Assembly (NCBI GenBank): GCA_900318565.1
Contig: ONLD01000008.1
Coordinates: 1-50,292, forward strand
Source of the DNA: an uncultured Bacteroidales bacterium
GTDB taxonomy: Bacteria > Bacteroidota > Bacteroidia > Bacteroidales > UBA932
Length of the DNA stretch: 50,292 bases
Reading direction: 5' to 3'
Shown piece after piece: positions 8,108 to 50,292 of this stretch. The first letter of the stretch is position 1. Each line of letters begins with the position of its first letter. A program made the translations under genes and the position numbers. The notes below the pieces were generated by a model. The model was given only the letters and a program-made list of their open reading frames with translations. It did not search any database and was not told the origin of the DNA.

Positions 8108-8120
8108 ATTGGCCGGGGGA

Positions 8121-8149
8121 CAAAAAGAGAGGCTGGCTATCAGTCTCTC
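8121..8149 (-). terminator. Rho-independent terminator of the GNAT-like gene
   Basis: On the minus strand GAGAGACTG-atagc-CAGCCTCTC is followed by TTTTTG. The 9-bp stem (one G-T pair) lies about 40 bases beyond the stop at 8190. A second small palindrome, GACTAAAAAGTC, lies between it and the gene. Confidence 0.75.
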
Positions 8150-8189
8150 GACTTTTTAGTCTCTTTTTATCTATTCGCCTTCATAGCAC

Positions 8190-9275
8190 CTACAGCGCCT
8201 TGACATAACTGCGGCGGCGCTGGTAGGGGTGGACGTCGTAGCCGCTGAAGAGGCTCTGGACTTTGTGGTTGTCTTCGAGCTGGGGGTTCAGCAGGAGGCG
8301 CTTGATTCCGAGGCGGAGGTAGTTCTCGTGGAGGTACTTGAACATCAGCAGCGCCGCGCCCTTGGCCTGGTATTCCGGCAGCACGCCGATGAGAAGCCCT
8401 TCGGCGACGTGGTTGCGGCGCGGATTGAGCAGCGGCAGGATGTGGATCCATCCGAACGGGAGGATGCGGCCCTTGGCTTTGCGCACGCCCGCCGAGATAT
8501 GAGGCATAGTCACAGTGAAGGCTACGAGCTTGTCTTCTTCGTTGACGACGAACGCCACGAGGTCCTTGTTCAGCACCGGTACATACTGTTTGACGTAGCC
8601 GTCAATCTGCTCCTCGGAGAGCTTGCTGTATTCATACAGCGGAGCGAACGCATCGTTGAGCACGTGGAACATCTCGCGGCCGCGGCGGGCCATCTGCGAG
8701 AGGCTGCTTGCCCTGTATATTTTCAGGCCGTAGCGCTTCTCCACAAGCTCCGCATACTGCATCATCGGAGGCAGCTGGTCGTCGAAATTGACGTACCTCT
8801 GGGTCCAGTCGGCATCCTTTGCAAAGCCCATACGCTCCAGGAACTCTCCATAATAGGGGTAGTTGTAAAGGACGGTAAAAGGGCTCTCGTTCTCGAAACC
8901 TTCGACCAGAAGGCCTTCGCGGTCCATATCGGTAAATCCGAGAGGTCCTTTGATCTTCTCCGGGTTCCATTTCCTTCCCCACTCCACGACCTTGTCCACA
9001 AGGGCCTTGGCCACTTCGAAATCTTCGATTACGTCGAACCATCCGAAGCGCACGGTCTTCTCATTCCATTTTTCATTGGCCTTGTGGTTGATAATCGCAG
9101 CTATGCGGCCGGCGATGCGGCCGTCCTTGTAAGCCAGGAACAATTCCCTGTCGCAGAATGCGAGCGACGGATTTTCACGTCCCAGGGACTTATATTCATC
9201 ATCCTCAAAAGAAGGAACCCATTTGTCACAGTCCTTGTACAACTCAATCGGGAAATTGATGAACTGCTTCAGCAT
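8190..9275 (-). CDS. GNAT-fold acyltransferase-like protein
   Basis: 361 residues. The N-terminal part resembles FPxxLYKD-type proteins that carry a degenerate GNAT domain. It has GPLGFTDMDREGLLVEGFE and YNYPYYGEF, both shared with a paralogue at 45594-46715. The C-terminal half has a second GNAT-like core (LIGVLPEYQAKGAALLMFKY, an acetyl-CoA pyrophosphate-loop-like stretch) and ends in a basic tail. The substrate is unknown, and the protein may acylate an amine. The start is the only ATG before an upstream stop; coding-like residues precede it (YVVEGKK), so a non-ATG start is possible. It stands alone, divergent from PFK, with its own -7 box and terminator. It is the first gene of the CATG-free core. 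Confidence 0.75.
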   Translation of the reverse strand: MLKQFINFPIELYKDCDKWVPSFEDDEYKSLGRENPSLAFCDRELFLAYKDGRIAGRIAAIINHKANEKWNEKTVRFGWFDVIEDFEVAKALVDKVVEWGRKWNPEKIKGPLGFTDMDREGLLVEGFENESPFTVLYNYPYYGEFLERMGFAKDADWTQRYVNFDDQLPPMMQYAELVEKRYGLKIYRASSLSQMARRGREMFHVLNDAFAPLYEYSKLSEEQIDGYVKQYVPVLNKDLVAFVVNEEDKLVAFTVTMPHISAGVRKAKGRILPFGWIHILPLLNPRRNHVAEGLLIGVLPEYQAKGAALLMFKYLHENYLRLGIKRLLLNPQLEDNHKVQSLFSGYDVHPYQRRRSYVKAL

Positions 9276-9314
9276 CTTTTTCCCTTCAACAACATATATG
9301 CGGTTTAGCGGCTA

Positions 9315-9322
9315 CAAATATA
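9315..9322 (-). promoter_or_regulatory. -7 box TATATTTG for GNAT-like gene
   Basis: Minus-strand TATATTTG, ~40 bases before the start at 9275. It fits TAnnTTTG and is back to back with the PFK promoter. Confidence 0.55.
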
Positions 9323-9358
9323 GCTATTTTTTGACTTGGTGTATTGCTCAATTTTTAT

Positions 9359-9366
9359 TAATTTTG
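9359..9366 (+). promoter_or_regulatory. Promoter of phosphofructokinase gene
   Basis: TAATTTTG (-7) with TTGG at 9336-9339 (-33) and a 19-base spacer, 38 bases before the ATG at 9404. Confidence 0.6.
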
Positions 9367-9403
9367 CGGGATTTTCGGATTAGGTTATTTATTTAGATAT
9401 AGT

Positions 9404-10633
9404 ATGAAAGATTCCATTATCATTCTTTGCGGCGGCGGCCCGGCTCCGGGTATGAATACCGTCGTGTGCTCCGTCGCCAAGACTTTCCTTTCCAATGGCT
9501 ATCGCGTAATCGGCCTCCACGGCGGTTACAGCGGGCTTTTCAGCAAGAATCCCCGTATCGAGGACATCGACTTCTTCAAAGCCGACGCTTATTTCAACAG
9601 AGGCGGTTCCTATCTGCAGATGAGCCGTTTCAAGCCCACTGACGAAGATTTCGAGCAGCGCTTCAACCTTGAGCTGTTCCAGCAGAACGGCATCAAGCTC
9701 CTGGTGACCGTGGGCGGCGACGACACCGCTTCGACCGCCAACCGCATTGCCAAGTTCCTCGAGGCAAAGAAATATCCTATCGCCAACATCCACGTGCCGA
9801 AGACAATCGACAACGACCTTCCCCTGCCGAACAACACTCCGACCTTCGGATTCAATTCCGCAAAACAGGAAGGCGCCCACATCGCCCGCACCATCTATGA
9901 AGATGCCCGCACCTCCGGCAACTGGCTCCTCATTTCCGCAATGGGACGCAGCGCCGGCCATCTCGCGCTCGGTATCGGCGAGGCTACGCACTGCCCTATG
10001 ACCATCATCCCCGAGATGTTCAACAAAACATCCATCACCATCGACAAAATCATCAAGCTGACCCTTTCCGCCATTATCAAGCGCAAGATTCTCGGCATAG
10101 ATTACGGTACCGTGGTCGTGGCTGAAGGCGTGTTCCACGATCTCGCAGCCGAAGACATCAAGGCCGCTGGCGTGCATATGACCTACGACGAGCACGGCCA
10201 CCCCGAGCTTGGCAAGATCAGCAAGGCCGTCCTCTTCAACGAACTGCTCGAAAAGGAGTTCAAGAAAGTCGGTATGAAGGTTAAGACCCGTCCCGTGGAG
10301 ATCGGTTACGACGTGCGCTGCCAGGATCCTATCGCATATGACCTGAGCTATTGCTCCGAGCTTGCGATGGGCGTGTACGAGCTCTTCCGTAAGGGTGAGA
10401 CCGGCTGTATGGTCTATGTGGACGCATTCGGCAATCCATCTCCCCTGTATCTGCACGACCTGCAGAACGAGGAAGGCAAGATTCCTCCCCGCCGCGTCGA
10501 GATTGCCGGAGGCATCGCCCAGAACTACTACAACCATATCTGCCACTACATTACTCCCGCCGATTATGAGGCTGCGAAGAAGTATGTGGCCGACCCTGAG
10601 GCCTACGATTTCAAGAAAATCCTGAACTGGTAA
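9404..10633 (+). CDS. 6-phosphofructokinase, likely pyrophosphate-dependent
   Basis: 409 residues. Phosphorylates fructose 6-phosphate to the 1,6-bisphosphate in glycolysis. The phosphate-donor loop is GGGPAPGMN (~10-18). GGDDT (104-108) and PKTIDND (132-138) carry the pattern of pyrophosphate-using enzymes; ATP users normally have GGDG in the first motif. MGRSAGH (180-186) binds the sugar phosphate. Length fits the medium-size PPi clade. A PPi enzyme can run the step in both directions and spare ATP, common in anaerobic Bacteroidota. Monocistronic, with a clear promoter and a hairpin downstream. The donor is inferred from motifs, not proven. Confidence 0.92.
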   Translation: MKDSIIILCGGGPAPGMNTVVCSVAKTFLSNGYRVIGLHGGYSGLFSKNPRIEDIDFFKADAYFNRGGSYLQMSRFKPTDEDFEQRFNLELFQQNGIKLLVTVGGDDTASTANRIAKFLEAKKYPIANIHVPKTIDNDLPLPNNTPTFGFNSAKQEGAHIARTIYEDARTSGNWLLISAMGRSAGHLALGIGEATHCPMTIIPEMFNKTSITIDKIIKLTLSAIIKRKILGIDYGTVVVAEGVFHDLAAEDIKAAGVHMTYDEHGHPELGKISKAVLFNELLEKEFKKVGMKVKTRPVEIGYDVRCQDPIAYDLSYCSELAMGVYELFRKGETGCMVYVDAFGNPSPLYLHDLQNEEGKIPPRRVEIAGGIAQNYYNHICHYITPADYEAAKKYVADPEAYDFKKILNW

Positions 10634-10653
10634 TCCCAGGTCCCGAAATAAAG

Positions 10654-10679
10654 CAGCCCGCCGGAATCCCGACGGGCTG
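10654..10679. terminator. Hairpin between convergent PFK and ACP genes
   Basis: CAGCCCG and CGGGCTG form a 7-bp stem, with extra inner CGG/CCG pairing, centred between the stops at 10633 (plus) and 10704 (minus). No strong T run on either side; probably serves both directions. Confidence 0.55.
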
Positions 10680-10703
10680 ATTCGTTTACTGCTGACCGAC
10701 GCA

Positions 10704-10946
10704 TTATTTCAATGCGCGGAGCACGGAGTCGCAGACTTCCCCGACAGTGGTGGGAGCAGCCTCCCCCACCGGGAAACGCATATTGAACTTCTCTTCAACT
10801 GCAAGCGAGAGCAGCATCATCGACAGGGAGTCGATGCCCAGCTCGCGCACGAGTTCCGTGTTGAAATCCACACCGGTAAGGTCCGTATTCGGGCGAATCA
10901 CCGAGATGACCTCCTTGAGGCCTTCGAAAACTTCTTCCCTGCTCAT
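10704..10946 (-). CDS. Acyl carrier protein (specialised)
   Basis: 80 residues. A four-helix carrier protein with the phosphopantetheine attachment Ser40 in ELGIDSLSMM. It differs from the second ACP at 47740 (GADSLD), which sits in the usual phospholipid and fatty acid context. Its start overlaps the ligase stop by 4 bases, so the ligase is translated first and the two are coupled. The pair suggests a free acid is activated and loaded onto this ACP. The downstream pathway is not visible here. Confidence 0.92.
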   Translation of the reverse strand: MSREEVFEGLKEVISVIRPNTDLTGVDFNTELVRELGIDSLSMMLLSLAVEEKFNMRFPVGEAAPTTVGEVCDSVLRALK

Positions 10947-12433
10947 ACTCTCGACACCTTCATACTGCCCGTGCGCTTGAAATCTTCGGTGCGTACAGTC
11001 ACTTTACGGATCTGGTGGGTGGAGGGCAGAGTGCCGTTGATCTTGTCCACCAGTGCATTCATATATGCGGTAACCTCTTCCCAGCTCTTGCCGTCGAATG
11101 CCGGCATAAACGGAAGAATCTCCACTGCAATGACGTTCTGACCGTTGAGATCATCCTCCTTGACCATCGCGTCACGCACGCAAGGATCGGCATAGAAAGG
11201 CTCCTCGAGGCTCTCTGGGCTCACATTCTCGCCATTGGAAAGGATAATCAGGTTCTTGATGCGGCCCGTGATGTACAGGAAGCCGTCTTCGTCGAAGCGC
11301 ACCAGGTCGCCGGTACGGAACCATCCGTCCTCGGAGAAAGCCTCGGCGGTCTTCTCGGGATCCTTGTAGTAGCCTGAGAATACGTTGTCGCCCTTGATCC
11401 AGAGCTCGCCGTCCACGACCTTGGTCTCCTGGCCGGGATAGATTTTGCCGATGGAAGTAGGATGAGTCACGGCGTCGGCGTTGGCGGAGGTCAGGTTGGC
11501 GGTCTCGGTCAGGCCGTAGCCGAAGCAGAACTCCACTCCGAGCTTGGTGAATATGCTCACAAGGCGGGGAGGCACGTTGGCAGCGCCGGAGATGATGAGG
11601 CGCAGGTTGCCGCCCAGGAACTGAGGGCCGTACATCTTCACGAGTCCTGAAAGGATGTCGCAGATACCGGGCACGATGACCAGCAATGTGGGTTTGAGCA
11701 CGGGCAGCTTGCCGATGGTGGCCTTCATATCTTCGCAAGTGAAGATGAGGTTGCCGGTGTAGAAGCATCCCATAGTGCCTGCGATGAGACCGAAGACGTG
11801 GCTCAGAGGCAGGATGGCGATGTAGCGGTGCACGCCGATGACCTTGCCGGGCTTGAAGATGGCGTTGTAGTTGCCGCGCATAAGGGCCCTGTGGCTCAGC
11901 ACGGCACCCTTGGGCATACCGGTAGTACCGCCGGTGAAGAAAATGGCGGCAGGAGAATCGGGATCTATCTTAGCGGAAGGAACGCCCTGCTCTGCAATGC
12001 TTGAAGCAGGAAGCACCTTGACTCCCTGGAGCTTTTCGGTGAGGGGTTTGAACTCATCACGCACGAACATTGCTGCGATGTCGAACTTTGCGCAGGAGCC
12101 TATGACTGCAGGCTCTACGAGGGTGGGAGGGAAATTCATTGCCACGTATCCGGCAGACGTCACGGCCAGGAAAAGTTCGATGGCATCCTGGCTGTTGCGG
12201 TCGAAAATAGCGATGTGGCTGCCCTTCGGAAGGCCGAGACCCTCGATGAAAGCGCGCCTGCGTGCGATTCTGTCTCCAAGTTCTTTGTAAGTGATTGTGT
12301 TGACCTGGTCGGAGAGTGCGGGGCTGTCCGCATATTCCTTGGTGAACCAGTCAGTGAATTCGCTCATTGTAGGAAGATAGGGAATCCTTTCGAACTCTTC
12401 CTTGGGGAGCATCTGGTAAAAATAGTTTGACAT
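10943..12433 (-). CDS. AMP-forming acyl-CoA/acyl-ACP synthetase
   Basis: 496 residues, ANL superfamily. P-loop-like A3 motif TGGTTGMPKG (167-176), A5 GYGLTET (305-311), A7 WFRTGDL (371-377), the hinge following near 390, and a C-terminal lysine in TGSMKVSR near 493. It activates a carboxylic acid as acyl-AMP and passes it to CoA or, given the coupled ACP gene, probably to ACP. The N-terminus starts directly with the adenylation domain and has no signal peptide, so it is cytoplasmic. Substrate chain length cannot be read from the sequence. A divergent promoter region separates it from ligA. Confidence 0.9.
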   Translation of the reverse strand: MSNYFYQMLPKEEFERIPYLPTMSEFTDWFTKEYADSPALSDQVNTITYKELGDRIARRRAFIEGLGLPKGSHIAIFDRNSQDAIELFLAVTSAGYVAMNFPPTLVEPAVIGSCAKFDIAAMFVRDEFKPLTEKLQGVKVLPASSIAEQGVPSAKIDPDSPAAIFFTGGTTGMPKGAVLSHRALMRGNYNAIFKPGKVIGVHRYIAILPLSHVFGLIAGTMGCFYTGNLIFTCEDMKATIGKLPVLKPTLLVIVPGICDILSGLVKMYGPQFLGGNLRLIISGAANVPPRLVSIFTKLGVEFCFGYGLTETANLTSANADAVTHPTSIGKIYPGQETKVVDGELWIKGDNVFSGYYKDPEKTAEAFSEDGWFRTGDLVRFDEDGFLYITGRIKNLIILSNGENVSPESLEEPFYADPCVRDAMVKEDDLNGQNVIAVEILPFMPAFDGKSWEEVTAYMNALVDKINGTLPSTHQIRKVTVRTEDFKRTGSMKVSRV

Positions 12434-12465
12434 TATTATTAGGTTTGGTTATTAAAATAATTCTG

Positions 12466-12473
12466 CAAATGTA
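12466..12473 (-). promoter_or_regulatory. -7 box TACATTTG for ligase-ACP operon
   Basis: Minus-strand TACATTTG, 32 bases before the start at 12433. Fits TAnnTTTG. Confidence 0.5.
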
Positions 12474-12556
12474 ATAATTTATCTTGAAACACCATCAACC
12501 TGAAAAACAGCACATTTCTCATACATATAAATATAGGGAAAAATCAGGAAAATGCT

Positions 12557-12564
12557 TATATTTG
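12557..12564 (+). promoter_or_regulatory. -7 box TATATTTG directly before ligA
   Basis: Ends 6 bases before the ATG at 12571, so transcription would begin at or within a few bases of the start codon (leaderless or nearly so). No clear -33 element. Confidence 0.55.
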
Positions 12565-12567
12565 TAA

Positions 12568-14643
<2,076 letters not shown>

Positions 14644-14647
14644 GAAG

Positions 14648-15583
14648 ATGAGCAGACTCAGCAACCTCTTCACCGACCGTATCTGGTCCATCGACACCGA
14701 GAAAGTATCGCTGGTCTCGAAAGGCTACGCCCGTCTCGTCAATTTTGTGAAGCTGATACGCATCACCATCGACACCTTCGCCGAGAACCGTATGGGTTTC
14801 CAGTGCGTTGCGCTCAGCTACTTTATGACCCTCGCCCTCATCCCGCTTACCGCTTTCATCTTCGCCGTCACCGGCGGTCTGGGCCTGAACGACTTCGTGG
14901 ACACTATCCTGATGGCCATTGCGCAGGATGTGGATCCAGACCTGCTTATGATGATCAAGGAAAAGGCAGTCAACATAATCGACAGCGCCAAGAGCGGCGG
15001 CGTGGGAGTGATTTCCGCGCTGATGTTCCTATGGACCATACTCTGGATGATGTTCCAGGTCGAAAGGGTGTTCAACAACGTGTGGGGCATACGCAAGATT
15101 CCCCGCAAGTTGTACAAGCGTTTCGGATTCTACTTCCTCGTGCTGCTGCTGACGCCTTTCATCGCCATCATCTTCAGCGCCGGTATCGCCTACTACTCCA
15201 ACTTTTCGAAGTTCCTCGGCCTGGACCTTTCGGAGCTCCGCTTCCTGCCCAAGCTCCTGGGCTACCTGGGATTCTACGTAATCGCGACCTTGACCTTAAG
15301 CGCGATGTACAAGTTCATACCCGCCACCGAAGTCAAGTATCGCAACGCGATACGCGCAGCGGCGATAGGCGGCGCCGTCTTCGTGATTTTCCAGTATCTG
15401 TACCTCGAGACGCAGGTCTTCGTGGCCCGTCTCAACACGGTGTACGGAGTGCTCGCAGCCATTCCCCTGTTCCTTATCTGGCTGAATTTCAGCTGGCAGA
15501 TAATCATTTACGGGGCCGAGCTTACTTATAGTTTCCAGAACATTAAGAATTATGGCCTTCAGGAGGAGGTCGGAAAGAAATGA
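14648..15583 (+). CDS. YihY/BrkB-family inner membrane protein
   Basis: 311 residues with about six membrane segments. The family features CVALSYFMTLALIPL near the start and IYGAELTYSF near the end are visible. Once annotated as RNase BN, the family is now regarded as membrane proteins of unclear role; some members are needed for envelope integrity. Lies 4 bases after ligA and overlaps the Rel gene by 4 bases, so the three are probably translated together. No catalytic residues are evident. Confidence 0.88.
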   Translation: MSRLSNLFTDRIWSIDTEKVSLVSKGYARLVNFVKLIRITIDTFAENRMGFQCVALSYFMTLALIPLTAFIFAVTGGLGLNDFVDTILMAIAQDVDPDLLMMIKEKAVNIIDSAKSGGVGVISALMFLWTILWMMFQVERVFNNVWGIRKIPRKLYKRFGFYFLVLLLTPFIAIIFSAGIAYYSNFSKFLGLDLSELRFLPKLLGYLGFYVIATLTLSAMYKFIPATEVKYRNAIRAAAIGGAVFVIFQYLYLETQVFVARLNTVYGVLAAIPLFLIWLNFSWQIIIYGAELTYSFQNIKNYGLQEEVGKK

Positions 15584-21131: not shown

Positions 21132-21134
21132 AGG

Positions 21135-24160: not shown

Positions 24161-24169
24161 TTTAATTTA

Positions 24170-24177
24170 CAAAAATA
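24170..24177 (-). promoter_or_regulatory. -7 box TATTTTTG for lipoprotein operon
   Basis: Minus-strand TATTTTTG, 9 bases before the start at 24160. Back to back with the CDF promoter. Confidence 0.5.
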
Positions 24178-24188
24178 CAAAAAATCCA

Positions 24189-24196
24189 TATCTTTG
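24189..24196 (+). promoter_or_regulatory. -7 box TATCTTTG for CDF transporter
   Basis: TATCTTTG, 22 bases before the ATG at 24219. Fits TAnnTTTG. Confidence 0.55.
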
Positions 24197-24218
24197 CACA
24201 CCTTGATACGATTTACTT

Positions 24219-32822: not shown

Positions 32823-32823
32823 A

Positions 32824-33900
<1,077 letters not shown>

Positions 33901-33920
33901 TTTGTCGCTCCTGTATTTTT

Positions 33921-33950: not shown

Positions 33951-34097
33951 GTCCCCTTGTTTAAAATATTATTACATATTAAAAAAACATATACACCATT
34001 TTTTAAGGAAAGAGGCGAAACTATAAAAATCGTAAAATCGTCCATATGATTTTTTCGGTTTCTTGGAATCAAGGCTGCCGGAAGGCAACTTTGCATT

Positions 34098-36053: not shown

Positions 36054-36079
36054 ATGTCCGTAAATTGCAAATGATTCCC

Positions 36080-36087
36080 TATCTTTG
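36080..36087 (+). promoter_or_regulatory. -7 box TATCTTTG for CoA transferase
   Basis: Ends 8 bases before the ATG at 36096, predicting an almost leaderless transcript. Confidence 0.55.
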
Positions 36088-36095
36088 CATCCGTT

Positions 36096-37394: not shown

Positions 37395-37430
37395 CGGAGG
37401 ACTTCCCCTATAGGCCCCCGGGGCCGGATA

Positions 37431-38825: not shown

Positions 38826-38831
38826 AGGCAC

Positions 38832-41415: not shown

Positions 41416-41421
41416 AATATG

Positions 41422-41429
41422 CAAAAATA
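41422..41429 (-). promoter_or_regulatory. -7 box TATTTTTG for parA operon
   Basis: Minus-strand TATTTTTG ending 6 bases before the ATG at 41415; a leaderless or nearly leaderless transcript is predicted. Confidence 0.55.
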
Positions 41430-41475
41430 CGAAATAATTCTCACTTTTCAATATCCCCCTTTCTAAATTAGGTTT

Positions 41476-43014
41476 TCACAGCGAAAGCTGATACTGAAGC
41501 TTGACTTCAAATTTAGAAGCTTTATACGTTGTGTTCCAAGGATATTCGACATACGATACTCTACAATCGAGACGGTGCCTCCGGGACGGTTTCCAGCTGC
41601 CTGCGAAGGACAGTGCCCAGCCCCTTCCGTAATAGGCCGGGACATTGAACGACCCCGGGACATCCCGTTCATATACATATATCCTGTCATCCCACTGGTC
41701 TATGCAAAAAAGGGTCCAGCGCAGCCACGCCTTCGCTTTTTCTCCCACGGCTCCGCCCTCGACGTTGAAGAGCCACGCCGGTCCGCGGCCGTGCACCACA
41801 TCCAACCTGGAGCGCAGCACGAAAGGCTCCAGCGACACTTCAGCCTCGCCCCGCCCCTCCAGGCGCCAGAAGTCTTTGTGGCGGGCCGCCAGCCGCAGCG
41901 AAGGGGCAATCCGGAAAGGTCCCGCCTGCCAGGAAGGAGCAAAGCGCGCAAAACTCCGGAACTGGGCGGGACTGCCGTACACGAGGGCTTCAAAAGTCTT
42001 CCCTGACGCCCCCAGCGCTATGTCGGGAGTGCCCGAGAGGTAACGCAGGAGCGCACCCGCCTTGTATCCGTACGACGGAATCCACAGCGTGCCGAGCACG
42101 GCCGCAGGCTCCCCTTTCCAGGCGGCTTCTCCAAACACCACGCCTCCGGGGTAGCCCAGCTTGAAGTCCGCGCCGACGCTCCGTCCTGCCACGCTGAGGC
42201 CCAGTGAAAAACGCTTGCCTACATAGCCGAGAGCACCCATAGGCAGCTTGTCTGTAAACGAATACGCAATCGAGGCGCTCCAGGCCCCAAGTCCGAAGTC
42301 GGCGGCCGCCCCGCACCTGCCGGGGCTGAAAGAGCCGGTCGGCGAGAAGCCAGTGCCGCTCCGGCGGAAAGTCCCCACTCCGCTCCACGGAGTTGCGGAA
42401 AAGCCGTCCCAAAGCACGAGCCCCTGGCCGAGGCGGGCGTTGAAATGGCCCAGCACCAGTTTGCCGAGGTACTTCCGGCCATAGACGGCGGCGCTGACCG
42501 TGCCAAGCCTCGGAGCCGTCTCGGAGTAGGTCGTTCGCGAGCTCCAGTTCACTTCCGCCCACTCCCCCGCCGAAAAGCGGTACCGGAACCCGCCGGCCGG
42601 AGTCCAGCCTTCGCTCTCCCTGGCAGAGCCCCTGAGCATCAAGTCGTTATGTACGGCTCGCAAGGGCCGCTGCCCTGGAGGCGAGCTGACGCCGAGCACG
42701 GTAAACGGGCGCAGCGCCTCGGCATAAGCGGGAGTAAAACCATCCACCAGGCCAAGCTCCGTATAAGACAGGATTTCGCCGCTCTCGAGCCTGTACTCTA
42801 TGAGGGAGGCGGCCTGGAAGGCGCTCACCAAACCGCTCGCCACGAGACGGCGGCTTCCGGCGGCATTAAGGTCAAGCGGCCGCTGCTCCAGAGCGCGGAA
42901 ACGCTCGAGAGTGCTTTCGTCAAGGTCTTCAATACAGGACGCGCCGGTAAGGAACAATACGGCCCCTTCGAAACCGGGGCAAAGTGCCAGCAACACTAAC
43001 ATCATCAGTTTCAT
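41476..43014 (-). CDS. Helix-hairpin-helix plus outer-membrane barrel protein
   Basis: 512 residues. A short hydrophobic N-terminus may act as signal. Residues ~45-110 form two ComEA-like helix-hairpin-helix units (PLDLNAAGSRRLVASGLVSA, then LSYTELGLVDGFTPAYAEAL). The remaining ~390 residues are alternating beta strands with aromatic ends (FRYRFSAGEWAEVNWSSR, SASIAYSFTDKLP), finishing in KFEVKLQYQLSL, a good outer-membrane barrel C-terminus. HhH units bind DNA in ComEA, so an outer-membrane DNA-uptake or DNA-contact role is conceivable, but this is inference. Monocistronic, divergent from fakA. Very GC-rich. Confidence 0.75.
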   Translation of the reverse strand: MKLMMLVLLALCPGFEGAVLFLTGASCIEDLDESTLERFRALEQRPLDLNAAGSRRLVASGLVSAFQAASLIEYRLESGEILSYTELGLVDGFTPAYAEALRPFTVLGVSSPPGQRPLRAVHNDLMLRGSARESEGWTPAGGFRYRFSAGEWAEVNWSSRTTYSETAPRLGTVSAAVYGRKYLGKLVLGHFNARLGQGLVLWDGFSATPWSGVGTFRRSGTGFSPTGSFSPGRCGAAADFGLGAWSASIAYSFTDKLPMGALGYVGKRFSLGLSVAGRSVGADFKLGYPGGVVFGEAAWKGEPAAVLGTLWIPSYGYKAGALLRYLSGTPDIALGASGKTFEALVYGSPAQFRSFARFAPSWQAGPFRIAPSLRLAARHKDFWRLEGRGEAEVSLEPFVLRSRLDVVHGRGPAWLFNVEGGAVGEKAKAWLRWTLFCIDQWDDRIYVYERDVPGSFNVPAYYGRGWALSFAGSWKPSRRHRLDCRVSYVEYPWNTTYKASKFEVKLQYQLSL

Positions 43015-43053
43015 AGTCTTAAGTTTTGGGGGACAATATACGAATATTTTATT

Positions 43054-43061
43054 TATCTTTG
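43054..43061 (+). promoter_or_regulatory. -7 box TATCTTTG for fakA operon
   Basis: Ends 9 bases before the ATG at 43071. Likely drives the eight-gene run to holA. Confidence 0.55.
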
Positions 43062-43070
43062 CAAACTATT

Positions 43071-44723
43071 ATGCATACTGAAAACCAGAAAACCTATGAG
43101 CTTGGCGGCGTGCTTTATCTGAAGATGCTTCAGCAAGGCTGCGCGCGCCTTGGGAACAACCGTCAGGCCGTCAACGACCTCAATGTTTTCCCGATACCAG
43201 ATGGCGATACCGGCGACAATATGACCCTCACTATAGAATCCGGCCTGTCCCAGGCTTCACAGTTAAAAGGTGCTGCCCTGGGCGAAATAGCAGGAGCCGC
43301 ATCCTCCGGGATGCTTATGGGAGCGAGAGGCAATTCCGGCGTCATCCTGTCCAGAATCTTCGCCGGCCTCGCCAAATCTCTGGCCGGCAAAGAATATACT
43401 GATACACAAGGTTTTGCAGCCGCTATGCAGGCAGCTGTCGAAGAAGCCTACGGGGCTGTCTCAAAGCCCGTGGAAGGCACCATCCTGACCGTTGTCCGCG
43501 AAGGTACGCAAGACGCTCTTCCCCTTGCCGGCGGCCCGCTCGAATCCTACATCGGCGCCCTGCTGCACGGAATGGAGTATTCTCTCGAAAAGACCCCGGA
43601 GAAGCTTCAGGTGCTCAAGGACGCAGGCGTGGTGGACAGCGGCGGAGCCGGACTGCTGCAGATTTTCTACGGCTTCCAGGATGCCCTCCTGGGCATCACC
43701 ACAGACTACGACTCCCCTGCCGCGGCCTCTCATTCTATGCCTCCGGTGGATTTCTCCCTTTTCAGCGAGGACACCGAACTAAAATTCGGCTACTGCACAG
43801 AATTCCTCCTGCGCCTGCAGCGTTCAAAGGTTGACCTTGACAGCTTCGACGAGAAAGAAATCGAGGACTACATCCTCGGAGCGGGCGATTCCGTGGTATT
43901 CTTCCGTGAAGGGTCCATCATAAAGGTGCACGTACACACCAAGACTCCCGGAGACATCCTCAGCCACTGCCAGCGCTGGGGCGAATTCCTGACCGTGAAG
44001 ATCGAGAATATGACCCTCCAGCACAACCACAGCGCATTCGCCGAGCCGAAGGAGAGCAAGCGCAAGGACTGGGGCCTGGTCACGGTAGCCTCCGGCGCCG
44101 GGCTTGCAGATGCGTTCAGGCAGGCGGGAGCCGATTACGTGGTGGAAGGCGGCCAGACGATGAACCCATCAGTGTCCGACTTCGTCGAAGCCTTCGACAA
44201 GGTCGCGGCCGATACCATTTTCGTTTTCCCAAACAATTCCAATATCATTATGACCGCCCGTCAGGCCGCCGAAGTCTATTCCGCCGCCGACGTGCGCGTG
44301 ATTCCGACAAAAGATATCGGAGCCGGCTACGTGGCCCTCGCATCCTTCGACCCTTCGGCAGGTGAAGCCGGAGCCATTGAAGAAGCACTCTCCCAGGCCG
44401 CTTCCGGCGTAGTGTGCGGAATGGTTTCCACCGCCATACGCGACACCGTGAAAGACGGCATCTCCGTCAGCCGCGGCTCGTTCATAGGATTCCGTGGCGA
44501 CGAGATACTTTCCAGCGCACAGACCCGCAACGATGCCGCCTGCAGCCTTCTCGACTCCCTGCGGGCCGGAGAGCACGACGTCGTGGTGGTCTTCTCCGGC
44601 GCCGACGCCGCCGAAGACGCTCCCGCGCTCCAGGCCGCACTTGGCAGCGCCTATCCCAATACCGAATTCATTTTCCACGAAGGCGGGCAAGCCGTCTTCG
44701 ACTATATTTTTGTATTATGCTGA
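43071..44723 (+). CDS. fakA: DAK2-domain fatty acid kinase, FakA-like
   Basis: 550 residues. N-terminal DhaL-type ATP domain (~10-205) with PDGDTGDN (43-50) for Mg-ATP and GARGNSGVILS; a middle domain (~225-320); and a C-terminal FakA domain (~330-550). In Firmicutes FakA phosphorylates fatty acids held by a DegV-type FakB to give acyl-phosphate. Here the DegV gene follows directly with a 7-base overlap, and plsX, the acyl-phosphate/acyl-ACP enzyme, lies two genes later. The start at 43071 is preferred over 43026, which would place the promoter inside the gene. Confidence 0.9.
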   Translation: MHTENQKTYELGGVLYLKMLQQGCARLGNNRQAVNDLNVFPIPDGDTGDNMTLTIESGLSQASQLKGAALGEIAGAASSGMLMGARGNSGVILSRIFAGLAKSLAGKEYTDTQGFAAAMQAAVEEAYGAVSKPVEGTILTVVREGTQDALPLAGGPLESYIGALLHGMEYSLEKTPEKLQVLKDAGVVDSGGAGLLQIFYGFQDALLGITTDYDSPAAASHSMPPVDFSLFSEDTELKFGYCTEFLLRLQRSKVDLDSFDEKEIEDYILGAGDSVVFFREGSIIKVHVHTKTPGDILSHCQRWGEFLTVKIENMTLQHNHSAFAEPKESKRKDWGLVTVASGAGLADAFRQAGADYVVEGGQTMNPSVSDFVEAFDKVAADTIFVFPNNSNIIMTARQAAEVYSAADVRVIPTKDIGAGYVALASFDPSAGEAGAIEEALSQAASGVVCGMVSTAIRDTVKDGISVSRGSFIGFRGDEILSSAQTRNDAACSLLDSLRAGEHDVVVVFSGADAAEDAPALQAALGSAYPNTEFIFHEGGQAVFDYIFVLC

Positions 44724-45586
44724 CACTTTTTTCTGATACTGACTGCGACGTGACTCCCGCCATCGCGAAGGAGTACGGTTTTAAAATCATACCTATGCCC
44801 TATGCCGTCGACGGCAAGCTCTACCACCCCTACGTGGAGAGCCAGGACTACGACCACAAAGCATTCTACGACCTGCTGCGCCAAGGCACCATCCCGACCA
44901 CCAGCGCCATATCCGATGCCGTGTACGTGAAATACTTCGAGCCCGAATTCGCGGCCGGCAACGACATCTTCTACGTCCATTTCTCCTCCGGTATGTCCAA
45001 TACCTTCGAGAATATGAACAGGGCCGTCAAGGAACTCCTCGAAAAGTATCCTGAGCGAAAGTTCTGGACCGTCGACACGCTCGGCATTTCTGCCCAGTCG
45101 CTCAATATAGTGTTCGAAATCGGAGACCTGTTCAAGGCAGGCAAGACTCCCGAGGAGGTCATCGAATGGGCCAAAGTCGAAGTCCAGAAATTCCCCCTGT
45201 ACTTCATTGCAGACGACCTCAAGTTCTTCCGCCGCAGCGGACGCGTCAGCGGACTCGCCGCCACGATGGGCAACTTCATCGGCATCCGCCCCGTCATCTA
45301 CGTCAACGAACAGGGCAAAATGGTGCAGATCGGCAAGGAAGTCGGCCGCAACAAGGCCATCGACCGTATGGTCCAGTACGTCGAGGAACTCGGCGAGAAT
45401 GTCAAGGACCACCGCGTGGTCATCGGTCACGCCGACTGTCAGGAACTGGTCGATATTCTCGTGGGCAAGCTTCGCGAGAAGTTCGGCGACGACCTGCGCA
45501 TTTACGTGACTATGGTCAACCCCACAATCGGCAGCCACTGCGGTCCCAACGGTATGGGCGTCTGCTTCCACGGCAAACACAGATAA
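44717..45586 (+). CDS. fakB: DegV-family fatty-acid-binding protein, FakB-like
   Basis: 289 residues. DegV fold: N-terminal FSDTDCDVTP, then PTTSAISD and FSSGMSNTFEN, which line the fatty-acid carboxylate and phosphate pocket; FFRRSGRVSG and IGSHCGPNGMGV near the end. It presents a bound fatty acid to FakA. The real start is the ATG at 44717; a longer frame upstream is an Arg-rich shadow of fakA. Overlap with fakA implies coupled translation. Chain preference cannot be read. Confidence 0.92.
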   Translation: MLTLFSDTDCDVTPAIAKEYGFKIIPMPYAVDGKLYHPYVESQDYDHKAFYDLLRQGTIPTTSAISDAVYVKYFEPEFAAGNDIFYVHFSSGMSNTFENMNRAVKELLEKYPERKFWTVDTLGISAQSLNIVFEIGDLFKAGKTPEEVIEWAKVEVQKFPLYFIADDLKFFRRSGRVSGLAATMGNFIGIRPVIYVNEQGKMVQIGKEVGRNKAIDRMVQYVEELGENVKDHRVVIGHADCQELVDILVGKLREKFGDDLRIYVTMVNPTIGSHCGPNGMGVCFHGKHR

Positions 45587-45593
45587 AAGTCTT

Positions 45594-46715
45594 ATGCTGG
45601 AAGTCAGGGAAATTAAGACGCGACGCGAGCGGAAGGATTTCATAGAGTTCCCTCTCAGGCTCTACAAAGACTGCCCGTACTTTTGTCCGCCGCTGTATAT
45701 GGACGAGCGCAACCTGTTCGGCAGCAAGAACATATACAACGACTGCTGCGACACCGTCTATTACGGCGCCTATCGTAACGACCGTATGGTAGGGCGCATA
45801 ATGGGCATCATCCAGAAAGCCGCCAACGAAAAGAACGGCGAAAAGCGGGTACGATTCGGGCGCTTCGATTCCATCGACGACCAGGCCGTATCCGATGCGC
45901 TGTTCAAGGCTGTCGAGGGCTGGGCCGTCTCCAAAGGGATGGATACCGCCCACGGCCCCCTGGGCTTCTCCGACCTGGAACGCGAAGGACTGCTTATCGA
46001 GGGTTTCGACCAGATGTCCACCTACGAAGAGCAGTACAACTATCCTTATTATCAGAAGCTGATCGAAGCGAACGGCTATGTCAAGGAGGTTGACTGGACT
46101 GAAAGCAAGCTGACCGTGCCCGAAGACTACGACGGCGGCCTCGAAAAGCTCGGGGACTTCGTGATGAAGCGCTACAAGCTCCACATCGGGCCCGCCAAGG
46201 ACGTCTCAGATTTCATCAAGAAATACGGAGACGGGCTCTTCGACCTCATCGACAAATCCTACGACAAGCTCTACGGCACCGTGCCCTTCACGACCGCGAT
46301 GAAGCGGCAGATGATTTCCGGTTTCAAGTTCATCGTGGACCTCCGCTACGTGGCCGTGGTCCAGGACGAGCACGACCGCATCGTGTGCTTCGGAATCTGC
46401 TTCCCCAGCATCGTGGAGGCCCTGCGTTGCTCCGACGGGCACATTACGCCCCGTATGCTCCTGAAGTTCCTCAAGGCGAAGAAGCACCCGCGCGTCCTTG
46501 ACCTCGGACTGGTGGGAGTGGACCCGGAATTCGCCAATATGGGCATCAGCGCCATATTCTCGGCCGCCCTTATGCGTATGCTCCGCGAAGACGGTATCGA
46601 ATACGCCGAGACCAATCTCAACCTGGAAGACAACTACGATATTCAGAACCTCTGGAAACGTTTCGGCCGGCAGGTCCACAAGAGACGCCGCGCCTTTGTA
46701 AAGAAACTGGTATGA
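45594..46715 (+). CDS. GNAT-fold acyltransferase-like protein (paralogue)
   Basis: 373 residues, same family as the 8190-9275 gene: IEFPLRLYKDCPYF, GPLGFSDLEREGLLIEGFD, YNYPYYQKL. The C-terminal GNAT core has GLVGVDPEFANMGISAIFSA (acyl-CoA loop region) and a basic tail. Unlike the other copy, the N-terminus is complete (MLEVREIKTRRERKDFI). It lies 7 bases after fakB and overlaps plsX by 4 bases, inside an acyl-phosphate/acyl-ACP operon. The donor may therefore be an acyl-ACP or acyl-CoA; the acceptor is unknown. Confidence 0.8.
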   Translation: MLEVREIKTRRERKDFIEFPLRLYKDCPYFCPPLYMDERNLFGSKNIYNDCCDTVYYGAYRNDRMVGRIMGIIQKAANEKNGEKRVRFGRFDSIDDQAVSDALFKAVEGWAVSKGMDTAHGPLGFSDLEREGLLIEGFDQMSTYEEQYNYPYYQKLIEANGYVKEVDWTESKLTVPEDYDGGLEKLGDFVMKRYKLHIGPAKDVSDFIKKYGDGLFDLIDKSYDKLYGTVPFTTAMKRQMISGFKFIVDLRYVAVVQDEHDRIVCFGICFPSIVEALRCSDGHITPRMLLKFLKAKKHPRVLDLGLVGVDPEFANMGISAIFSAALMRMLREDGIEYAETNLNLEDNYDIQNLWKRFGRQVHKRRRAFVKKLV

Positions 46716-47731
46716 TAAAGATTATTGTTGATTGCTTCGGCGGCGACCACAGCCCGGAAGCCAATGTGGACGGCGCAATCGCCTCCCTGAAGTCTCTGAG
46801 TGACCTGCATCTCATACTCAGCGGAGACGAAGCCGCCCTGCAGCGCTGCCTGGAAGGCAAGGACTACGACCGCAGCCGCGTGGAGATTCTCCACGCCCCG
46901 CAGGTCATAGGCTGCGACGAGCGCCCTACCGACGTTATACGCCTCAAGCGCGAAAGCTCTATGATCAAGGCCATACGCCTGCTGCGCGACGATGACTCTG
47001 TCGCGGCTATGGTAAGCACCGGATCCACAGGAGCCTTGGTTGCCGGAGCCCTGACGCGCCTGGGCCGTCTCCGCGGCGTGATCCGCCCCGCCTTTTGCCC
47101 CATCCTCCCGACAATGAACGGAGGCATCGTGGGCGTGTGCGACAGCGGCGCCAACGTGGAAGTGACGCCCGAGCACCTGCGGCAGTTTGCGATAATGGCG
47201 AGCCTGTATATGGAAAACGTGTACGGCATCTCCAGGCCGCGCGTCGCCCTGCTCAACGTGGGCAAGGAAGCCGAGAAAGGCGACGAACTCCGCCAGACGG
47301 CATACCGCCTGCTCGAACAGACCGCGGAAATCAATTTCGTGGGCAATATGGAGAGCAGGGACCTGCTGAGCGGCAGCTACGACGTGGTCGTGGCCGACGG
47401 CTTCTCCGGCAACGTGCTCATCAAGTCCACGGAAGGGGCGGCCATCGAACTGCTGGGCAAGCTCAAGAAAGACATCTACTCCAAGTTCATCTATAAGGTG
47501 GGCGCGGCCCTGATGAGCCGTATGTTCAAGCAGGAGAAGGAGTTTATGAACTACCAGAATTATGGCGGCAGCGTGCTGCTCGGCACATCCAAGGTAGTGG
47601 TCAAAGGCCACGGCAGCAGCAAGGCGGTAGCGGTGCAGAAATGCATCGAGCAGGCTTACAAGATGCAGGTCAGCGCCCTCGCCGGCAAGATGGAAGATGT
47701 AATCTGCAGATACGAACACTACGAACAATAA
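46712..47731 (+). CDS. plsX: Phosphate acyltransferase PlsX
   Basis: 339 residues. Interconverts acyl-ACP and acyl-phosphate, feeding PlsY for lysophosphatidate synthesis. Family motifs: IIVDCFGGDHSPEANVDGA, MVSTGSTGALVAGALTRLG, and VVADGFSGNVLIKSTEG. Peripheral inner-membrane enzyme. Its neighbour acpP follows by 8 bases. With fakA and fakB upstream, both ways of making acyl-phosphate are encoded in one operon. Confidence 0.96.
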   Translation: MIKIIVDCFGGDHSPEANVDGAIASLKSLSDLHLILSGDEAALQRCLEGKDYDRSRVEILHAPQVIGCDERPTDVIRLKRESSMIKAIRLLRDDDSVAAMVSTGSTGALVAGALTRLGRLRGVIRPAFCPILPTMNGGIVGVCDSGANVEVTPEHLRQFAIMASLYMENVYGISRPRVALLNVGKEAEKGDELRQTAYRLLEQTAEINFVGNMESRDLLSGSYDVVVADGFSGNVLIKSTEGAAIELLGKLKKDIYSKFIYKVGAALMSRMFKQEKEFMNYQNYGGSVLLGTSKVVVKGHGSSKAVAVQKCIEQAYKMQVSALAGKMEDVICRYEHYEQ

Positions 47732-47739
47732 AGTTAACT

Positions 47740-47967
47740 ATGTTTGAAGAAGTCAAAACCATTCTCGCCCGCCAGCTGAGGCGGGACCCCGAGACCATCA
47801 CACTTCAGTCCGACATCAAGAAGGACCTTGGTGCCGACTCCCTGGACATCCTCCAGCTGCTTATGCGCGTGGAAGATGAATACGGCATCGTGATTCCCGA
47901 CCAGGAACTTGCCGGTTTCCGGACAGTTGCCGACGTGGTCGAATTCCTGGACAAACAAAAGCAATAA
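47740..47967 (+). CDS. acpP: Acyl carrier protein
   Basis: 75 residues. Phosphopantetheine Ser34 in DLGADSLDIL, acidic helix II (LLMRVEDEYGI). The start at 47740 is the natural one; a longer frame extends into plsX. Gene position plsX-acpP is widespread. It is distinct in sequence from the ACP at 10704. Confidence 0.95.
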   Translation: MFEEVKTILARQLRRDPETITLQSDIKKDLGADSLDILQLLMRVEDEYGIVIPDQELAGFRTVADVVEFLDKQKQ

Positions 47968-47970
47968 GCT

Positions 47971-48513
47971 ATGGACACCATCAAGCTGCACGACAAGACT
48001 TTCCGTCCCTTCATCCCCCACGACCGCATAGAGTCGGCAATCGACGCCGTGGCCGAGAAAATCAACCTTGATTTCGAAGGCTGCGAAGACGTGCCCGTGA
48101 TTATCTGCACACTGACCGGAGCCATTATGTTCACGTCCGAACTGCTCCAGCGCCTCCGCTTCACGGTCGAAGTGAACTGCATCAAGCTCAGCTCCTACCA
48201 GGGCACGCGCAGCACCGGCACCGTGCTTACTATGCTCGGTCTGACCGGCGATGTGAAAGGCCGCCGCGTCATCATCTGCGAAGACATCGTGGACACAGGC
48301 AACACCATCCTGGCCCTCCAGGAAATGCTCCTCGCGCAGGGCGCCGCCGAAGTGCGCATCTGCACGATGCTCCTCAAGCCCGACGTGTATGACAAGGACG
48401 TCAAGCTTGACTATGTGGCTATGGAGATTCCGAACGCATTTATCGTCGGCTTCGGACTCGATTACGACGAGCTCGGACGCCAGTATAAAGACATCTATGT
48501 TTTAGACCAATGA
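47971..48513 (+). CDS. hpt: Hypoxanthine phosphoribosyltransferase
   Basis: 180 residues. Purine salvage: transfers ribose-5-phosphate from PRPP to hypoxanthine or guanine. The PRPP loop is ICEDIVDTGNTI (~96-107); ITLTGA-like CTLTGAIMF binds pyrophosphate; FIVGFGLDYDELGR is the C-terminal base site. Three bases after acpP; overlaps adk by 4 bases. Confidence 0.95.
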   Translation: MDTIKLHDKTFRPFIPHDRIESAIDAVAEKINLDFEGCEDVPVIICTLTGAIMFTSELLQRLRFTVEVNCIKLSSYQGTRSTGTVLTMLGLTGDVKGRRVIICEDIVDTGNTILALQEMLLAQGAAEVRICTMLLKPDVYDKDVKLDYVAMEIPNAFIVGFGLDYDELGRQYKDIYVLDQ

Positions 48514-49085
48514 AATACTACATTCTTTTCGGCCCTCCCGGTGCAGGAAAAGGCACCCACGCTGGGGCAATCGCACAAAAGTACAACCTCAAGCACATCT
48601 CCACCGGCGAGTTGCTTCGGGCCCAGATTGCAGCCGGCACCCCCCTCGGCATCAAGGCCAAGGCTCTAATCGACAATGGCAGCCTCGTCCCCGACGAAGT
48701 CGTGGAAGGGATGATTCAGGACGTGTTCAATTCAGTCAAGGACGTGGACGGCTTCCTGCTGGACGGCTATCCCCGCACCATCCCCCAGGCCGAGGTGCTT
48801 GACGAGATTGTCGCCGCCCGCGGAGAGACCGTGACCGGCGTCATCTCCATTATGATTCCCGATTCAGAAGTCCACGCCCGTATCGCCCGCAGGGCGGCCA
48901 TCGAAGGTCGTGCCGACGACGCCTCGGACGCTACCATCACCCACCGCATCGAGACCTATCACGCCCAGACGGAGCCCCTTATCGATTTCTATAAGAAGGA
49001 AGGCAAGTACCACGAAGTCTGCGGCTATCCCGGAAGCATTGACGAGGTGCGCGAAAGGGTACTCGCCCTGGTAGAAACCATCTAG
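48510..49085 (+). CDS. adk: Adenylate kinase
   Basis: 191 residues. P-loop GPPGAGKGT (8-16), AMP-binding region STGELLRAQI, and LLDGYPRT. Short-lid form typical of Bacteroidota, without the zinc lid. Coupled to hpt by a 4-base overlap, together serving purine nucleotide balance. Confidence 0.96.
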   Translation: MKYYILFGPPGAGKGTHAGAIAQKYNLKHISTGELLRAQIAAGTPLGIKAKALIDNGSLVPDEVVEGMIQDVFNSVKDVDGFLLDGYPRTIPQAEVLDEIVAARGETVTGVISIMIPDSEVHARIARRAAIEGRADDASDATITHRIETYHAQTEPLIDFYKKEGKYHEVCGYPGSIDEVRERVLALVETI

Positions 49086-49088
49086 ACT

Positions 49089-50132
49089 ATGGCAGCCCGC
49101 AAGGAAGACATATCCGTGCTCAGCAACCAGCTGATTGAAGAGGCCAGGCAAGGCGTTTTCAGGCCGGTGTACGTCCTTATGGGCGACGAACCGTACTACC
49201 CCGAACTGGTCTGCCAGGCCATTCTCGACAACTGCATCGACGAGTTCGGGAAAGATTTCAACGAGACAGTCTGCTTCGGCGCCGACGTGACGCCGGAGCA
49301 GATTATTACCGCTGCGAGGCGCTTCCCTATGATGGCGGACAGGCAGCTGGTCGTGGTGAAAGAAGCCCAGATGATGAAGGGCATAGATGAAATCGCAATC
49401 TACTGCAACGAGCCGCTTGACTCCACCGTGCTGGTGCTGCTGCTTCGCGGAGCGTCGCTGGACAAGCGCAAGGCCCTTTACAAAGCCGCCCAGAAAGCCG
49501 GCGTAGTGCTGGAAAGCCCGGCCCTGAGGGATTATGAGATTCCGGGCTGGATTTCCCGTTTCTACGGCGAGCGCGGACTCCAGATAGAGCCGGAAGCCGC
49601 CAACCTCCTGGCCGAGTCCGTCGGCACCGACCTTTCCACCATTGCCGTCGAGACCGACAAACTGCTGAAGAACCTGCCTGAAGGCAGTACCTCAGTATCT
49701 GTAGCGGACATTGAGAAGAACGTCGGTATCTCACGCCAGTTCAGCATATTCGAGCTTACTAAAGAGCTTTCTTATCGCAATGCCCCAAAGGCCCTCAGGA
49801 TCGCCGCAAGCATTGGCAATGCAGCCCGGTTCAATATGCCGCAGGCCGTGAGCGCCCTGTATATGCATTTCTACCGCATTCTCAAGTACGGAGCCCTGCT
49901 GTCCCGCGGCGGCTACCCTTCCGCAGAAGACAAGGCCTCCGCTCTCGCGGGCGTGAACCCATATTTCTATAAAGAGTACGACGCCGCGGTGCGCAACTAT
50001 CCCCTGCCCACCGCTATGGCAGTGATGTCCCTGCTCTGCGAGTACGACTACCTCGGGAAAGGCGGGGACGGAGGAGCGGCAACTCCCCCGGAATTAATGG
50101 TCGAACTCATTTCCAGGATTCTTAACAGCTGA
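49089..50132 (+). CDS. holA: DNA polymerase III delta subunit
   Basis: 347 residues. Clamp-loader delta subunit that opens the beta clamp. N-terminal AAA-like domain without a functional Walker A (PVYVLMGDEPYYPELV), a middle helical region (SVGTDLSTIAVETDKLL), and a C-terminal collar domain. Last gene of the fakA operon, 3 bases after adk. Confidence 0.93.
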   Translation: MAARKEDISVLSNQLIEEARQGVFRPVYVLMGDEPYYPELVCQAILDNCIDEFGKDFNETVCFGADVTPEQIITAARRFPMMADRQLVVVKEAQMMKGIDEIAIYCNEPLDSTVLVLLLRGASLDKRKALYKAAQKAGVVLESPALRDYEIPGWISRFYGERGLQIEPEAANLLAESVGTDLSTIAVETDKLLKNLPEGSTSVSVADIEKNVGISRQFSIFELTKELSYRNAPKALRIAASIGNAARFNMPQAVSALYMHFYRILKYGALLSRGGYPSAEDKASALAGVNPYFYKEYDAAVRNYPLPTAMAVMSLLCEYDYLGKGGDGGAATPPELMVELISRILNS

Positions 50133-50162
50133 TTTTTTATTGGAAACTGCAAAGAACTTATG

Positions 50163-50170
50163 TATCTTTG
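50163..50170 (+). promoter_or_regulatory. -7 box TATCTTTG for transporter gene
   Basis: Ends 8 bases before the ATG at 50179. Confidence 0.55.
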
Positions 50171-50178
50171 CGGCCGCT

Positions 50179-50292
50179 ATGCTAAAATTCATTACTTCTG
50201 GAAGCACCGCAGGTGCAATTTTCATTCTGGCGCTGGTCATAGCATCGGGACTGTACCTCGGCCGGTTCAAGGTCAAAGGCATTTCCCTCGGC
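50179..50292 (+). CDS. Putative AspT/YidE-family transporter (partial)
   Basis: Only the first 38 codons are present; the gene runs off the right edge. The start MLKFITSGS is followed by a hydrophobic helix (GAIFILALVIASGLYLG) and RFKVKGISLG. The GxYLGxxKVxGxSLG pattern is typical of the N-terminus of the aspartate:alanine exchanger/YidE duplication family. Substrate unknown. The call rests on this short pattern. Confidence 0.65.
   Translation, partial: MLKFITSGSTAGAIFILALVIASGLYLGRFKVKGISLG

Follow-up and report, generated by a model that had tools for sequence, protein, structure and literature searches.

CATG has been almost completely removed from the genome of an uncultured Bacteroidales bacterium, which we examined starting from a single stretch of 50,292 nucleotides (contig ONLD01000008.1, contig 73 of assembly GCA_900318565.1), called the window below. 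The assembly, labelled G000 among the genomes compared, contains 2,309,176 bases in 104 contigs and is 96.5% complete. We infer a CATG restriction enzyme as the agent: the word was probably purged by selection from a resident CATG-cutting enzyme, in the simplest case the endonuclease of a Type II restriction-modification (R-M) system.

Depletion of CATG in the window and in the genome

A full recount of the window returned the 13 CATG positions of the first-pass annotation, all correct and with none missed. Only one of them falls in positions 8108-50292. The second-order Markov expectation for this part, counted on both strands, is 148.1 copies (observed/expected ratio, o/e, 0.007), and shuffling of synonymous codons in its 35 genes (41,016 bases) gives 156.3 +/- 8.3 copies, with a minimum of 125 in 1000 shuffles. 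The estimate of a hundred or more expected copies, made at first reading, is borne out by both numbers. The next-lowest tetranucleotides in the same part are CTAG (0.065) and CTAA/TTAG (0.32); GATC stands at 0.44.

A normal CATG content outside the window, which would have contradicted the first-pass annotation, was looked for and is absent. Over 101 stretches of the genome (1.457 Mb) there are 205 copies versus 4791 expected (o/e 0.043, the lowest among all tetranucleotides), and 61 of these stretches are without any. A later count, which like the first one includes the window, covered 158 stretches (2,259,149 bases, or 2.259 of 2.309 Mb) and found 273 CATG, about 197 of them clustered. When only sites flanked by two G/C bases on each side are counted (the G/C-context count, applied also to other words), the whole genome contains 25 CATG versus 631 copies of the reversed word.

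In 141 stretches, 19 clusters with a total length of 66.6 kb hold 192 of 263 CATG, at local o/e from 0.35 to 1.27. Several of them carry transposases or R-M genes, as judged from sequence reading and Pfam. The clusters look like mostly newly arrived DNA and also 16S genes: one (L106) covers the 3' portion of such a gene, and a second partial 16S gene, in L255, retains 5 CATG. The word is also retained in 3 of 41 tRNAs; we suggest that CATG persists in rRNA and tRNA because no neutral change is available there. Unclustered copies number 76 in the 158 stretches, about 1% of expectation at the rate of the 101-stretch count. At the start of contig 65 (L078:1-964), 11 CATG lie within 1 kb containing a transporter-like fragment, followed by about 17 kb free of the word; such a sharp border would mean that the fragment is foreign or that the contig end is chimeric.

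Selection on the word and its recurrence among relatives

All codon frames plus noncoding DNA are depleted of CATG. Genome-wide, four-fold degenerate codons end in C in 0.2% of cases before ATG versus 55% before ATA, ATC or ATT (ATH). Before G, 18 of 3889 His codons are CAT, versus 40-44% before the other three bases, and A is the last base of xCN codons in 0.4% before TG versus 15% before other T-starting codons. The first-pass annotation had proposed that C-ending codons are avoided before ATG and that T-ending ones take their place. The avoidance is real, and the replacement is only part of the picture, because the third base of four-fold codons before ATG is T in 46% and G in 41%. In 162.5 kb of noncoding DNA with clusters masked, CATG occurs 18 times, GTAC 316 times and the other counted words 505-826 times.

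Comparison with relatives reveals how the sites disappeared. Retention of ancestral sites, given for tetranucleotides with at least 15 of them, is 0 of 40 for CATG in G000 (median over tetranucleotides 0.47) and 0 of 27 in the purged relative L145 (median 0.63), versus 21 of 48 in the control L135 (median 0.40). In amino-acid-matched orthologs, with the slash marking the codon boundary, G000 kept none of 25 xxC/ATG sites versus 61 of 76 xxC/ATH, and none of 6 CAT/G versus 11 of 15 CAT/H. L145, compared with its sister L144, kept 0 of 19 xxC/ATG versus 71 of 89 xxC/ATH, and 0 of 5 CAT/G versus 13 of 14 CAT/H. The unpurged L135, compared with L138, kept 15 of 24 versus 43 of 71 and 3 of 8 versus 8 of 15 in the same two frames, and the unpurged L140, compared with L139, kept 3 of 3 CAT/G versus 2 of 3 CAT/H. 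L141 retains 7 of 20 xxC/ATG versus 53 of 65 of the control codons, which looks like a purge under way. The third frame, xCA/TG, says little because it offers 3 sites only and its control retention is low and variable (0 of 3 kept in G000, all lost by A to C; xCA elsewhere kept in 9 of 38).

The xxC/ATG sites of G000 were lost by C to T in 16, C to G in 6 and C to A in 3 of 25 cases, and those of L145 by C to T in 15 of 19. Every CAT/G site was lost by T to C, 6 in G000 and 5 in L145. Since the two main frames were lost via different synonymous changes and matched codons outside CATG were mostly kept, selection acts on the CATG word itself and not a single mutational bias.

The depletion is lineage-specific, a property of the species and not of the genus. 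Among 400 genomes of the genus, taken at any completeness and including G000, the ratio of CATG to control is below 0.3 in 50 and below 0.1 in 15; the median is 1.32 and G000 is fifth lowest. Scored by eye, 6 of 138 members of the family outside the genus fall below 0.3, as do 2 of 243 members of the order outside the family (completeness at least 85%). Further relatives were fetched with the ligase-like gene of the window as query; their assemblies belong to Bacteroidales or Bacteroidia, with ruminants as a frequent source and the name Candidatus Cryptobacteroides in one case, and at 11 of these 80 loci CATG has an o/e below 0.3. The genome sets of the separate analyses overlap (G540 represents the same places as G510, and genomes reached via loci may repeat). 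A tree of ten genes, for which 24 of the 80 loci served as input, places the window together with L135 (o/e 0.88) and L141 (0.43); L145 (0.01) is the sister of L144 (0.74) at 55% identity at four-fold sites, and L146 (0.14) is nested among unpurged kin. Because purged lineages stand beside less purged tree neighbours, the purge must have arisen several times.

Other words have been purged as well. We surveyed 72 loci plus the window; the other 8 of the 80 loci fell short of 8 kb, and a word was scored only where at least 12 copies were expected. The four-base palindromes that ever fall below 0.3 are CTAG (61 of 66), CATG (11 of 73), GATC (6 of 73) and ACGT (1 of 73); among other words, CTAA/TTAG does so at 17 of 54 loci and CTTA at 1 of 69. 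Known Type II enzymes recognise CATG, GATC and ACGT. The rarity of CTAG in bacterial genomes likewise concerns a palindromic tetranucleotide far below expectation; unlike CATG, CTAG is rare at nearly all scorable loci. One relative of the same clade (L170, 22 kb) presents another purged pair of palindromes, with 0 ACGT versus 43 expected and 6 GATC versus 75, at a CATG o/e of 0.73. In G191, of which L273 represents 8 kb, GATC and CATG are both purged, with 9 and 26 G/C-context sites in 1.5 Mb.

Candidate enzymes in relatives and in this genome

Candidate CATG systems are found in relatives. The Pfam ICEA nuclease is present in 4 of the 400 genus genomes, at full length in G506, G313 and G250 (E 6.4e-120 to 3.4e-114) and truncated in G467 (1.3e-52), where the contig ends inside the gene. 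In G250, G313 and G506 the order is M1-ICEA-M2, M1 being an N6_N4_Mtase-related methyltransferase and M2 a D12 methyltransferase. At each of the four loci no more than 300 bases separate M2 from ICEA, and in G250 the end of the locus truncates M2; the Pfam D12 match of G313 reaches 2.6e-50, and whole-genome D12 matches are present in G313 and G467. By the family name and by analogy with Helicobacter, these systems presumably target CATG. Three of the carriers have low ratios (G250 0.28, G313 0.13, G467 0.04), so that ICEA occurs in 3 of 50 depleted genomes versus 1 of 350 others (Fisher p 0.007; with a cut-off of 0.15, p 0.019; with 0.10, p 0.14). An NlaIII-like D12 gene was found in 3 of 25 purged versus 0 of 25 unpurged genomes. 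ICEA is absent from G532, one of the most purged genomes (ratio 0.04), whose lone NlaIII-like D12 gene (L008) has LptF-like and IlvE-like neighbours, as does the system of G313 (L009/L115/L128). Judged by this gene content, the locus looks like a decaying copy.

Elsewhere ICEA is scarce. None was found in 27 further purged and control genomes, which possibly overlap the first set; 72,556 plasmid records yielded one distant match (35% identity, E 4e-20), 50,697 phage records yielded no match, and IMG/VR yielded one viral contig. Another genome depleted of CATG (G194, 91 versus 792) encodes a 446-aa N6_N4-type methyltransferase (L129:679-2019, 3.7e-15).

Searches of the whole G000 assembly with the ICEA, D12 and N6_N4 families revealed no NlaIII-type system; the enzyme searches cover an assembly that is nearly complete, with unbinned plasmids outside their coverage. 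Profiles M2 and R, made from the relatives' proteins, had no match in 2.26 Mb of G000, and the M1 profile had only a weak one (8.8e-5), on a methyltransferase of a DpnII system. A tblastn search gave no such system either; the two best matches of R, in L047 and L070 (E 0.003 and 0.018), were rejected, as they lie opposite ordinary genes. A regular expression for nuclease motifs matched 24 of 8040 stop-to-stop open reading frames (ORFs) and gave no usable candidate. The methyltransferase motif scan was run on stop-to-stop ORFs too, with a PrmC-like gene included.

The whole-assembly family searches gave one D12 gene and one N6_N4 gene, both in the DpnII system, and no N6_Mtase. The only C5 gene belongs to an EcoRII-like system with Vsr, and the one Eco57I match, below cut-off, is PrmC-like. 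DpnII and EcoRII-like systems have targets other than CATG. Because of these targets and their position on CATG-bearing stretches, both systems were rejected as cause of the purge and are taken as later arrivals. GATC has an o/e of 0.365 in G000. The EcoRII-like locus also holds a 409-aa gene without Pfam match.

The first 8107 positions of the window, which we read as recently arrived DNA, contain the other 12 CATG. GC-rich direct repeats are present also at 194-283 and 7912-8001, within or at the edge of this part. Two core pieces of the window repeat had no match in the other G000 stretches searched. Gene names for 12571-14643 and for the gene around 33033 are our presumptions from the sequence.

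Table 1. Coordinates of the features discussed (in the window unless a locus is given)
Feature	Position	Strand	Remarks
Housekeeping chromosome purged of CATG, 42.2 kb	8108..50292		Markov and codon shuffle
Sole CATG of the purged part, TAC-ATG, frame xxC/ATG	33033..33036		inside presumed glyceraldehyde-3-phosphate dehydrogenase-like gene
CATG-bearing stretch, 12 sites, o/e 0.38	1..8107		GC 46% versus 57%; cluster 800-7701 with o/e 0.44
Transposase	287..2176	-	DDE_Tnp_1_6 1.9e-29, DUF772 1e-18; TTG start in listed ORF
LytTR-type response regulator (5235-6005) and histidine kinase (5974-7128)	5235..7128	-	in CATG-bearing stretch
Direct repeat of 152 nt, copy 1	2008..2159		91% identity to copy 2
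Direct repeat of 152 nt, copy 2	7969..8120		at border with purged part
Presumed NAD-dependent DNA ligase-like gene	12571..14643	+	query for 80 relatives; CATG-free
DpnII-type R-M system	L045:6170-8828, contig 32		DpnII nuclease 2.7e-105, Dam-like and second methyltransferase; stretch with 20 CATG
EcoRII-like system	L247:9020-13381, contig 66		EcoRII-C 3.8e-60, C5 methyltransferase, Vsr endonuclease; CATG-bearing stretch

Origin and meaning of the purge

We regard restriction pressure as the best account, because it explains the word-specificity, the choice of palindromes, the speed, the recurrence and the genes of the relatives. Of the causes offered at first reading, long CATG-directed, restriction-like pressure is upheld, as the loss is word-specific, extends over coding and noncoding DNA and is recurrent, and ICEA occurs in relatives. 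Methylation-linked mutation bias has to be given up for reasons presented below. In the presumed process, unmethylated or half-methylated CATG would each risk a break, and mutations that remove a site would be favoured, whichever base changes. The remainder would consist mainly of unremovable sites (rRNA, some tRNAs) or just-arrived islands. Further species of the group have probably undergone the same process independently, with GATC as another target word and ACGT as one in a single case. The system may now reside on DNA missing from the assembly, or it may have just been lost. Since CATG sites have not grown back, the cutter would have been active until very recently; and since CATG is present in islands and in rRNA, either those sites are protected or the cutter is gone.

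Several observations weigh against a resident CATG cutter. Firstly, a search for a CATG methyltransferase or an NlaIII-type nuclease, as suggested in the first-pass annotation, found none in the G000 assembly, and 8 of 14 purged genomes have no D12, N6_N4, N6_Mtase or C5 match over cut-off. Secondly, ICEA accounts for at most 3 of the 50 depleted genus genomes, and its carrier G506 has a ratio of 0.74. Thirdly, stretches with near-normal CATG exist within G000, and the unpurged L140, compared with L139, kept 5 of 11 xxC/ATG versus 28 of 37 xxC/ATH. Finally, CATG is the most abundant motif among those studied in Helicobacter pylori (9036 per Mb), in which the cutting enzyme is facultative and the CATG methyltransferase M.HpyI universal, according to the passages of that study dealing with CATG (PMC10423294). 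Because CATG is so abundant there despite the universal methyltransferase, CATG methylation alone does not accompany a purge. It is possible that the missing enzyme of G000 is encoded on unbinned plasmids or islands, that it was lost recently, or that the system is of an unrecognised kind.

Avoidance of restriction sites (palindromes) was reportedly described by Gelfand and Koonin in 1997. For orthodox Type II R-M systems, a threshold of 0.78 is used by Rusinov et al. 2015, whose main text, in which CATG does not appear, also describes traces of lost R-M systems (PMC4687349). Our case resembles such avoidance as presented there: a palindromic target of 4 bp is scarce, and the host may be without an enzyme that its relatives carry. 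As far as can be judged from sequence, the ratio is under the threshold, selection bears on the whole word, whether the DNA is coding or not, the effect is lineage-specific, and relatives carry the candidate ICEA; a cognate system in the same genome was not found in G000, which has only the DpnII and EcoRII-like ones. It differs in degree, the o/e being 0.04 over the genome and, once clusters are set aside, about 0.01 versus 0.78 (PMC4687349), in the near-complete loss beside a near-normal sister, and in the eight purged genomes without a recognised methyltransferase of the four families. The NlaIII and IceA1-HpyI systems share the CATG target, as stated for M.HpyI in the text of PMC10423294, and ICEA near D12 in four genus genomes, with M1 in three, is reminiscent of them; unlike there, the system was not found in G000, and the CATG of H. 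pylori is unpurged. Among titles and abstract openings, we found no report of a CATG purge in Bacteroidales. Avoidance of restriction sites is thus known, and it is the completeness, the speed and the missing enzyme that are unusual here.

One branch of this explanation, that a CATG R-M system disappeared after it had purged the genome, is a tentative proposal which we would put at somewhat under even chances. No enzyme was seen in 2.26 of 2.31 Mb nor in the whole-assembly family searches, the lone D12 gene of G532 occupies a G313-like position as if decaying, and traces of this kind are among those described in the main text of Rusinov et al. 2015 (PMC4687349). With only 76 unclustered CATG, such a loss would have to be very recent, about 0.01 synonymous change per site by a rough estimate.

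A purge without any methyltransferase, caused by a CATG-directed nuclease or another DNA-targeting system that is not of a known R-M type, to which the hosts would be immune through lacking the word, seems to us unlikely. The genomes concerned are G191, G228, G273, G276, G412, G425, G434 and G457, and none of five unpurged genomes (G022, G058, G139, G239, G293) lacks all four families; this contrast is confounded by completeness, which is 67-99% in the eight (99% in G228) and 98-100% in the five controls. Eco57I gives no match in three of the eight and matches below cut-off in three, and the matches of G276 and G412 reach cut-off over 20-30 PrmC-like residues. G191 has none of the four families despite its loss of both GATC and CATG, and G/C-context GATC still numbers 76-540 in the six genomes whose D12 matches are strongest (E up to 4.5e-65, in the group of the G000 Dam-like gene). 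A visible methyltransferase and a purge are thus not coupled in these assemblies. G000 and the eight genomes would form the first set for such a mechanism, and such lineages would be able to lose GATC too, as in G191. The CATG of rRNA, tRNA and islands would then need some other shielding.

We return to selection by a CATG restriction enzyme and to what distinguishes it from decay without selection, in which a methylated C (or A) of CATG would be hypermutable. C to T is indeed the commonest change in xxC/ATG, in G000 as well as in L145. In CAT/G, however, there is no synonymous C to T, and this frame was lost to completion by T to C; before ATG the share of G rises too. The dominance of one base change expected of methylation decay is not observed. 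As different bases were lost in different frames and matched codons were mostly kept, no single hypermutable base suffices, and we consider this explanation very improbable.

Equally hard to sustain is selection at the level of RNA, with an mRNA interferase cutting CAUG or with CAUG disturbing translation starts. Codon contexts are strongly affected, and a palindrome is blind to strand. Still, noncoding DNA (transcribed and untranscribed parts pooled) is depleted as well, with the 18 CATG versus 316 GTAC given above, and the purges of GATC and ACGT in kin point to DNA enzymes. Retention of CATG in 16S and tRNA genes fits both levels. An artefact of assembly or binning, or a compositional effect of high GC, can practically be set aside: the assembly is in 104 contigs, and of the 76 unclustered CATG 42 are found no more than 1.5 kb from the end of a stretch, but the Markov, codon-shuffle and reversed-word controls (631 versus 25) all agree, and the same depletion appears in assemblies of other species from several studies.

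Taken together, the genus provides a natural experiment: of two sister species, one has lost a four-base word almost entirely and the other has not. With codon-matched controls one can measure what each restriction site costs, how fast purging proceeds and how the life cycle of an R-M system runs. NlaIII-type cutting should have little effect on species poor in CATG, and in purged genomes the CATG content can help to flag newly arrived DNA. If the purged species have no methyltransferase, they would represent a defence that tells self by absence of a word and not by methylation.

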